Below, piece by piece: positions 13,613-17,889 of a stretch of 64,000 nt of DNA. The stretch spans positions 3,100,001 to 3,164,000 of the forward strand of contig NC_019962.1 in NCBI RefSeq assembly GCF_000230735.2. The letters are read 5' to 3'. The stretch's first letter is position 1, and each line of letters starts with the position of its first letter. The notes below the pieces were generated by a model. The model saw only the letters and a list, made by a program, of their open reading frames with translations, was not told the DNA's origin and ran no database searches. This stretch comes from Natrinema pellirubrum DSM 15624. Lineage in GTDB: Archaea > Halobacteriota > Halobacteria > Halobacteriales > Natrialbaceae. A program made the position numbers and the translations under genes.

Positions 13613-13804
13613 ATGTCAGCGTATCGATCACCGTTCGAGCGGCTCCGGGAGAAGTTCGACGAGTCCGAGCGTCGCTGTCCGGAGTGTGGCTACGTCGACA
13701 CCGAGGGTGGCTGGCGCGTGACCACGTCCGGCGGCCGGGTCCGCTACCAGTTCGTCTGTCCCACCTGCGACGCCGTCGAAACCAGGGAACTCCGCCTCGA
13801 GTGA
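13613..13804 (+). CDS. small zinc-finger protein (HVO_0649-like)
   Basis: The protein has 63 residues. An N-terminal amphipathic helix (FERLREKFDE) is followed by CPECGYVD and VCPTCDAVETRELRL, giving a four-Cys zinc site with a beta hairpin between the knuckles. The family name HVO_0649-like is from memory; the function is not known. It is divergent from the Bat-type regulator with 105 bases between the starts, so it could be a target of that protein. Confidence 0.75.
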   Translation: MSAYRSPFERLREKFDESERRCPECGYVDTEGGWRVTTSGGRVRYQFVCPTCDAVETRELRLE

Positions 13805-14140
13805 TCGCTCACCGGGGCTCGAGCGACCGCAGCCGTTCGCGAGCGGCGACGCCGCCCATCGACCGCTCAGTTTCGGACGGAAACCCGCCTTTTTCCGCAG
13901 GAGCCGTCGGTAACGAGGAACTGAGACCGACTGGATGGCGCAGAATCGTCGGTTTCAGTCGTCGCGGCGTCGATCCGGCAGTCACCGCCGATCGCTTTCG
14001 GTCGGTCGCAGCCGACGCAGTCGAACGGGGGTCGTATGACCATGATCGATCGGCTCCGGGCTCGAAAGGGCTGTTTTCTCCGGTCTAATCCCGTAACAGT
14101 CGACCCGTTTTAGCCGGGGACCGCTCCTACGTCGGTCCGT
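13805..14140. other. intergenic stretch with promoter for the next gene
   Basis: No gene was seen in these 336 bases. The only clear signal is GTTTTAGCC at 14108-14116, about 28 bases before the ATG at 14141. Confidence 0.5.
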
Positions 14141-15235
14141 ATGGTTTCACGACCACGAACACTCGGTGTCGCGTTCGTCGCCGTGCTGGTCGCGCTCTCG
14201 GGGGGTCCCGCCCTCGTAGGGGCGACCGCACCGGCCGCGAACGACGACGCCGGAGACATGAGCGACACGAGCGCAACGCTACAGAACGTCCAGGTCGGGA
14301 CGCTGGAACTCGAGAACGTCACGGTTCGAAACGCCACGATCGAAGAACTCAGCGTCCAGCAGTTGGACGTCCAGAACAGCGAGGGGCTCCAAGACGCACT
14401 GAACGAGTCCGCGGACGACCAGTCCACCGGAAACGACACCGCGGCCGGCAACGAGTCCGCGGGCGACGAGGTCACGATCTCGAACGTCGCGTTCGAGTCG
14501 CTCGCGCTCGAGAACGTCTCGATCGAGGACCTCGGCGGAACCGATGGCGAAAACGCGACCGACAACGAGAGCGCCGCCGGCGAGAACGACTCCACGGCCG
14601 GCATCGGGCAGGCGATCGACGAGGGGGCCACGAACGTCACGGTCGGAAACATGACGATCGAGTCGATGACCACCGAGCAACTGACCGTCGAGGACCTGAC
14701 TGTCGAGGACGACGGCGGCGGCATCCTCTCGGGGATCTCCGATTTCATCGGCGGCCTGTTCGGCGGTGACGGCGACGGCGAGGCCAACGAGAGCGAGAAC
14801 GCCAGCACGCAGGATATCGAGGAACTGACCGTCGAGGAGTTCGACGTCGACGAGATTACGGTCACCTCGATGACCGTCGGCAGCCTCGAGACACAGGCCG
14901 ACGGGAACGAGACAGCCGACAACGAGATGGCCGGCAACGAAACCGGCGGAAACGAAACGACGGCGAACGAGACTGGTGAGAACGAAACCGCCGGCAACGA
15001 GACGGCTGGCAACGAACCGGAACCGACCGGTACCGACGACGAGATGGCGGGCGAGACGATCCCCTCGCTCGAGGCCGGCTCAATGACGATCGACGACGTC
15101 GCGGCGAGCAGCGTCACCCTCGGTGAAACCGACGGATTACAGGCCGCCCTCGAGCAGTCACAGGGCGAGAACGAGACGGCCGACAACGAGAGCGGGAACG
15201 AGACAGACACTGCAAGCGACACCGAAACCGGGTGA
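14141..15235 (+). CDS. secreted pentapeptide-repeat protein with many N-glycosylation sequons
   Basis: The protein has 364 residues. A Sec-type signal (RPRTLGVAFVAVLVALSGGP, cleavage probably near residue 28) is followed by about five blocks with a five-residue period, for example TLELE-NVTVR-NATIE-ELSVQ and NMTIE-SMTTE-QLTVE-DLTVE. A central Val/Ile/Leu every five residues is the hallmark of a pentapeptide right-handed beta-helix. The blocks are joined by acidic linkers rich in GNETA-like repeats with more than 20 N-x-S/T sequons. GLQDALNES (about 85) and GLQAALEQS (about 335) look like a repeated capping segment. There is one amphipathic Gly-rich stretch (ILSGISDFIGGLFGG, about 200). It is probably an S-layer-side glycoprotein; no known family was recognised. 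Confidence 0.8.
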   Translation: MVSRPRTLGVAFVAVLVALSGGPALVGATAPAANDDAGDMSDTSATLQNVQVGTLELENVTVRNATIEELSVQQLDVQNSEGLQDALNESADDQSTGNDTAAGNESAGDEVTISNVAFESLALENVSIEDLGGTDGENATDNESAAGENDSTAGIGQAIDEGATNVTVGNMTIESMTTEQLTVEDLTVEDDGGGILSGISDFIGGLFGGDGDGEANESENASTQDIEELTVEEFDVDEITVTSMTVGSLETQADGNETADNEMAGNETGGNETTANETGENETAGNETAGNEPEPTGTDDEMAGETIPSLEAGSMTIDDVAASSVTLGETDGLQAALEQSQGENETADNESGNETDTASDTETG

Positions 15236-15301
15236 CGTGGGACAGCGACTCCCCAGTCACGGTAGTCGCTTCGCGGCCGTTCGTCGCCGATCTCCGGACG
15301 A

Positions 15302-15871
15302 CTACACCTCGTCCGAGTCGCGGTCCGTCCCGAACAGTCGGTAGTACGAGAGCGCGAGGACGGTCCGGCCGTCGCGGACCTCGCCGTCGGCCACCGCATC
15401 GGTCAGCGCCTCGAGCGACCGGGTTCGGACGCGAATGCTCTCGTTGTGATCGAGGCGCTGTTCGGCGGTCGGCCGACAGCCCCGAGCGACGAAGAAATGC
15501 AACACGGCGTCGGCGATCCCGTTTGCCGGTTCGACGGTCACCAGCGGCTCCAGCTCGTCGGCCTCGTGGCCGGTCTCCTCGGCGAGTTCCCGACGAGCTG
15601 CTGCCTCGAGGTCGTCGTCCTCGGGCTCGGTGCCGCCGACGGGGAGGCCGTGGCTGACCCGGGAGACGGCCTGTCGCCACTCGTCGATACAGACGACGTC
15701 GCCGTCGGGCGTCAGCGGCAGCACACAGACGCTGGCCGGCTCCGAGAGGTAATCGAAGTCGGTTTCGGTCCCGTCGGGAAGTCGAACGGACTCGTTAACG
15801 ACATCGAACCCCGGACAGGAGTAGGCTACGCGACGATCGCGGGTCTCCCACTCGAGCGAATCGGTTGGCAC
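15302..15871 (-). CDS. Nudix hydrolase (ADP-ribose pyrophosphatase-like)
   Basis: The protein has 189 residues. It opens with WETRDRRVAYSCPGFDVVNE and carries the Nudix box GGTEPEDDDLEAAARREL followed by AEETGHE at about residues 90-115. The catalytic REL-x-EE core is intact, while the first box Glu is Asp. The family hydrolyses nucleoside diphosphates linked to another moiety and needs Mg2+. The GTG at 15871 is chosen over the ATG at 15946 because TTTTTGACC lies about 28 bases before it and the 25 extra residues look non-coding. It converges with the secreted repeat protein gene after a 66-base gap. Confidence 0.82.
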   Translation of the reverse strand: MPTDSLEWETRDRRVAYSCPGFDVVNESVRLPDGTETDFDYLSEPASVCVLPLTPDGDVVCIDEWRQAVSRVSHGLPVGGTEPEDDDLEAAARRELAEETGHEADELEPLVTVEPANGIADAVLHFFVARGCRPTAEQRLDHNESIRVRTRSLEALTDAVADGEVRDGRTVLALSYYRLFGTDRDSDEV

Positions 15872-17619: not shown

Positions 17620-17889
17620 CTATTCGCTTTCGTCGGTTTCGTTCGCGCCGGCCGTCTCGTTCGTTTCGTTCGTGTCGGTCTCGTTGTCGCTCACCCCGGG
17701 CGTCTCCTCGCTCGGTTCCTCGTCCTCCTCGATGTCCTGGCCGTTGCCCGTCCCCTCTTCGGCCTCGGTCTCGGTGTCGTTCTCACTGTCGCCGCCCGGC
17801 CCGCCACAGCCGGCAAGGAAGGCGCTCGAGGCCGCGACACCGGTCAGTCCCAGCACGCGTCGGCGAGTCGTCGACGGGTCGTTGGTCAT
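17620..17889 (-). CDS. small Tat-exported lipoprotein, low complexity
   Basis: The protein has 89 residues. STTRRRVLGLTG is a twin-arginine signal and SAFLAGC a lipobox with Cys 28 as the acylated residue. The remainder is an acidic Glu/Asp/Thr/Asn-rich tail with several N-x-T sequons (NDT, NET) and no folded domain. It probably sits as a short surface peptide anchored to the membrane. It lies upstream of the tandem-repeat gene on the same strand, separated by 81 bases. Confidence 0.75.
   Translation of the reverse strand: MTNDPSTTRRRVLGLTGVAASSAFLAGCGGPGGDSENDTETEAEEGTGNGQDIEEDEEPSEETPGVSDNETDTNETNETAGANETDESE

Follow-up and report, generated by a model that had tools for sequence, protein, structure and literature searches.

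A secreted haloarchaeal pentad-repeat protein with a probable beta-solenoid core and exchangeable acidic linkers

A gene in the window analysed here (the whole stretch of 64,000 nucleotides from Natrinema pellirubrum DSM 15624, contig NC_019962.1, positions 3,100,001 to 3,164,000) encodes a protein that we lean, if only slightly, towards reading as a secreted haloarchaeal structural protein, in which a core of about 25 pentads probably forms a beta-solenoid and which would have a surface or matrix role. The features of the gene are collected in Table 1.

Table 1. Features of the pentad-repeat gene (window positions)
Feature	Position	Strand	Basis
Whole gene, 364-aa secreted pentad-repeat protein	14141..15235	+	ORF; matches in 100/125 genomes of the family; pN/pS mostly <1
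Putative Sec-type signal peptide, residues 1-29	14141..14227	+	alignment and sequence inspection
Block 1, residues 45-79, 7 pentads, family signature LxLxNVTVxNATIxxL	14273..14377	+	pentad counts
GLQDALNES, residues 82-90, helix-like, after block 1	14384..14410	+	alignment; helix in low-confidence AlphaFold models
Linker 1, acidic, sequon-bearing, not conserved	14411..14470	+	homologue comparison
Block 2, residues 111-130, 4 pentads	14471..14530	+	pentad counts
Linker 2, variable length	14531..14635	+	homologue comparison
Block 3, residues 166-190, 5 pentads	14636..14710	+	pentad counts
GGGILSGISDFIGGLFGGD, residues 192-210, helix-like, hydrophobic, possibly amphipathic, after block 3	14714..14770	+	homologue conservation
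Linker 3	14771..14824	+	homologue comparison
Block 4, residues 229-253, 5 pentads; I226 also in register	14825..14899	+	pentad counts
Linker 4, NET-rich, 6 NET tracts, most variable stretch among close relatives	14900..15067	+	homologue comparison
Block 5, residues 310-329, 4 pentads	15068..15127	+	pentad counts
GLQAALEQS, residues 332-340, helix-like, after block 5	15134..15160	+	helix in low-confidence AlphaFold model
Acidic NET-rich C-terminal tail	15161..15232	+	sequence inspection

The gene and its family

The pentad-repeat gene represents a real, selected gene family. It is an intact open reading frame, with its ATG at 14141 and its stop codon at 15233-15235, exactly as delimited in the initial annotation. 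The gene is assigned to the plus strand because its homologues have that frame in common and, for the most part, a pN/pS below 1. Such values hold for blocks and linkers alike, and in most comparisons the inward positions vary less than the outward and linker positions. A minus-strand ORF of 429 aa (14110-15399) was rejected as a shadow of the plus-strand gene.

The closest named relatives are from Natrinema, with 95% identity in N. thermotolerans. At an E of 1e-3 or better the protein finds matches in 100 of the 125 genomes of its own taxonomic family, covering 27 of the 29 genera sampled, a count of single-sequence matches in which some of the weakest could owe their score to linker composition. 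A profile search of a class sample extends the distribution to three more taxonomic families of the order and to nothing else in that sample; neither a relative among viral contigs nor a match on plasmids was found. A single copy was found in the source genome, and tandem copies, two per genome, occur in several genera (L007, L008, L009).

On its upstream side, where the neighbour varies between genera, the gene is flanked by a PAS/GAF/BAT regulator and a zinc-ribbon miniprotein. Its downstream neighbours, among them a NUDIX protein and a PadR-type regulator, are found close to the gene in several genera. An operon partner was sought among these neighbours, none of which points to a function. 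The frame ahead of the start codon, PVYxRxRxYDxLHM, shows striking conservation across six relatives (L052, L056, L059, L061, L066, L067), which suggests a conserved promoter or 5' leader. Two small genes of the window were noted. A 63-aa ORF at 13613-13804 (+), with two CPxC pairs and a sub-threshold match to Zn_ribbon_8, appears to be a haloarchaeal zinc-finger miniprotein; an 89-aa putative Tat lipoprotein, RRRVLGLTGVAASSAFLAGCGG, at 17620-17889 (-), ends in an acidic, NET-rich tail and matches nothing in Pfam, and in L003 and L006 lipoproteins like it occur close to the homologous gene.

Pentad blocks, conserved segments and termini

Hydrophobic residues of the protein co-occur at lag 5 (z = 8.4) and lag 10 (z = 6.9); lags 2 and 3 are positive and lags 1, 4 and 6 depleted, giving an alternating 2-3 spacing. 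The five blocks of five-residue period first noted by the model reader are borne out as strict runs of 7, 4, 5, 5 and 4 pentads, 25 in total, as against 0.75 on average and never more than 7 in 2000 shuffles. The pentads of this protein read [LVM][TS][VIL]E[N/E/S], and the family consensus has L 36%, V 29%, M 13% and A 12% at the first position, T 45% at the second, V 37%, I 30%, L 18% and F 5% at the centre, E 43% at the fourth and N 25% at the last. The block vector 7-4-5-5-4 recurs exactly in 14 of 59 proteins and most others are off by a pentad or two, although the block finder used for this set accepts weak pentads and single-pentad differences may be finder noise. The distant relative L052 has 7-4-5-5-4 in the strict count despite much shorter linkers, and in three relatives with another linker type (L056, L061, L067) blocks 2 and 3 are fused into one array of about 13 pentads (weak pentads accepted); both arrangements would follow if the linkers had been inserted into a single solenoid. 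Compact relatives of 223-241 aa (L058, L062, L068) likewise have short linkers. Homologues therefore keep the period, and nearly keep the number of pentads per block, and the possibility that they lack the period, raised by the initial annotation against its own reading, is excluded.

The GLQxALxxS segments previously remarked at both ends are present after blocks 1 and 5, with L83 and L87 nearly invariant in the one and L333 in the other. A third conserved segment, GGGILSGISDFIGGLFGGD, had been overlooked; it is kept in the nearest homologues and in L050 and L051, which belong to a different family of the order, and is absent from the type-A tandem paralogues. The N-terminus, MVSRPRTLGVAFVAVLVALSGGPALVGAT, has by inspection the Sec form of the signal peptide that had been proposed (two Arg, a run of some 20 hydrophobic residues, small residues), with neither lipobox Cys nor twin-Arg, and is unusually conserved among homologues (M1, S3, F12, A14, V17, GGPAL). 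Inspection of the C-terminal tail reveals no membrane anchor or sorting motif. The protein has no cysteine and is extremely acidic, with 23% D+E and 3 K/R.

Linkers and predicted N-glycosylation

The protein carries 22 N-x-S/T sequons (2000 shuffles: mean 5.6, maximum 12), 4 inside blocks and the other 18 in linkers or at the ends. Thus the figure of more than 20 sequons given in the initial annotation is correct for the whole protein, but the linkers for which it was meant hold slightly fewer than 20, even with the ends included. An oligosaccharyltransferase, STT3/AglB, is encoded in the source genome at C1:983017. Given the signal-like N-terminus, the sequons and the presence of AglB, N-glycosylation of the protein is predicted and plausible. 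Of 52 members, 46 retain N64, the second sequon of the block-1 signature.

Linker length among relatives spans about 5 to 162 aa, and the linkers differ in kind. NET-rich linkers in Natrinema and in another family have about 5-9 sequons per 100 residues, whereas the D/E/N-rich linkers of Natronorubrum (L008, L009) and of L063 and L069 leave 0-5 sequons per whole protein; a further type, rich in T/E, is found in another family, some members of which have a CARDB-like domain. The NETxxNET pattern also occurs in at least 5 other genes of the source genome, among them exported lipoproteins and the STT3/AglB frame in its C-terminal part, and sequon-rich spacers are therefore a general habit of its exported proteins. 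Since sequons number 0-5 in relatives that share the blocks and NET tracts stand elsewhere in the genome, dense glycosylation is best regarded as a lineage trait of the spacers; the dense sites claimed for the protein do exist, but as a defining trait they are weakened. The same acidic NET-rich spacers are shared by lipoproteins L091, L093 and L102, the AglB tail (L092) and the multidomain protein L095, whose domains differ from those of the window protein and in which no pentad blocks were noticed in passing. The C-terminal part of the STT3/AglB open frame lies at about 985.7 kb (C1:985723) and itself closes with an acidic, NET-rich tail. In the Natronorubrum copies (L008 4219-7134, L009 3912-6717) nearly all linker sequons are replaced by D/E/N repeats. 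Natronorubrum species are haloalkaliphiles; given that D/E/N linkers occur in two of them, linker type may follow pH.

The proposed fold and its alternatives

Searches of Pfam, NCBIfam, PHROGs and PDB sequences return nothing significant for the protein, and nothing above cut-off for its relatives, of which the best reaches Pentapeptide_4 at E = 5.7e-4 with 20.3 bits against a cut-off of 38. The statement that no described family accounts for it therefore holds for Pfam, NCBIfam and the PDB. AlphaFold gave low-confidence models, with a mean pLDDT of 35 for the full protein (11 sequences) and 41.5 for blocks 1-3 (12 sequences). Strands are placed in blocks 1-3 in both models and in block 4 in the full-length one, which has no strand in block 5, and linkers are without strands. 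Foldseek finds no meaningful structural match for either model. Disorder throughout, the outcome the initial annotation had set against a solenoid, is neither borne out nor excluded by these models. Because both runs are of low confidence, the beta-solenoid is something we infer.

A mucin-like, largely disordered secreted glycoprotein, in which pentads are extended sticky segments folding only on assembly or never and function resides in the sugar-bearing linkers, would agree with a pLDDT below 50 almost throughout, with long, acidic, sequon-rich linkers and with AglB/STT3 in the genome. We consider it unlikely, as the relatives with 0-5 sequons keep pentad counts and hydrophobic positions, linkers that can be exchanged for D/E/N or T/E tracts are hardly the functional point, and the compact relatives make do with short ones.

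Five-residue period and two inward hydrophobics spaced 2-3 are common to the protein and to pentapeptide-repeat proteins (PF00805, PF13599; PMC8145042), in which loop insertions (AlbG, HetL, Rfr23) and terminal helices are also known (PMC8145042), and relatives give sub-threshold Pentapeptide_4 matches (E 5.7e-4, 0.028, 0.054). That the protein simply belongs among them is a reading of some weight, to which we nevertheless assign less than an even chance. The published definition asks for at least 8 contiguous consensus repeats (PMC8145042) and the longest run here is 7, with linkers of up to 162 aa in relatives; no Pfam family, PF00805 and PF13599 included, is over its cut-off, whereas a 758-aa ORF of the same genome (C2:133 kb), taken as positive control, passes that of PF00805 repeatedly. 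The diagnostic positions differ as well. The control has A 59%, D 36%, L/F 87% at the centre and G 27% at the last position, and canonical repeats read (A/C/S/V/T/L/I)(D/N..)(L/F)xx; the family reads [LVMA][TSED][VIL][EDQ][NESD], not A(D/N)LxG, and with V 37% and I 30% at the centre its pentads depart from the rule of a central L/F with a small residue (A/C/S/V/T) two before it. YjbI-type secreted pentapeptide-repeat proteins (PMC12864828) and lumenal Rfr32 (PMC8145042) are likewise exported behind a signal peptide, but YjbI has abundant canonical repeats and conserved cysteine pairs, unlike the cysteine-free window protein with its V/I-centred repeats and long acidic linkers. The term pentapeptide repeat is therefore apt for the period and not canonical by sequence. 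By the published definition the protein falls outside the pentapeptide-repeat proteins, and it may have the same fold, a right-handed quadrilateral beta-helix; proteins of period 5 can, however, have independent origins. A beta-solenoid of a different kind, also built of five-residue faces but, for instance, left-handed and with three of them per coil, would be merely analogous to the pentapeptide-repeat proteins. V/I-centred pentads with T between the inward residues (45%), at odds with the pentapeptide-repeat consensus, and block sizes of 7, 4 or 5, 5, and 4 or 5, which are no multiples of four, speak for such an analogue; as a structural match of any kind is absent and the sub-threshold similarity favours pentapeptide-repeat families, we find it improbable.

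We read the protein as a sequence-divergent form of the five-residue solenoid, exported to the surface or matrix, even though V/I centres, unlike the L/F of proteins known for the pentapeptide fold, weigh against a solenoid. The pentads (Phi-x-[V/I/L]-x-x) would wind as five-residue faces of a single beta-solenoid, from which the linkers would exit and rejoin as disordered acidic loops, with the short GLxxAL segments as caps or breaks. Less certainly, the exported protein would be a stiff rod on the cell surface or in the matrix, its bristles hydrated, charged and in Natrinema partly N-glycosylated, with a coating, spacing or adhesive role and not that of an enzyme. We infer this structural role at the surface or matrix because of export, extreme acidity and general composition, solenoid-like repeats and exchangeable hydrophilic linkers. 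More tentatively, the family may constitute an undescribed haloarchaeal class of V/I-centred pentad beta-solenoids, built on a constant core of some 25 pentads, with four fixed interruption points and linkers exchanged by lineage (sequon-rich, polyacidic, Thr/Glu-rich), the same surface rod being re-dressed for different salt or pH regimes.

Widely distributed within one haloarchaeal family, these proteins nevertheless stand outside Pfam and NCBIfam. If the fold is confirmed, a sequence-divergent class would be added to the five-residue solenoids, and its members would form a natural series in which the core is constant and the surface loops pass from sugar-acceptor to polyacidic to Thr-rich. 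Such a series of linkers could serve to probe the role of surface glycans or charge at salt saturation.
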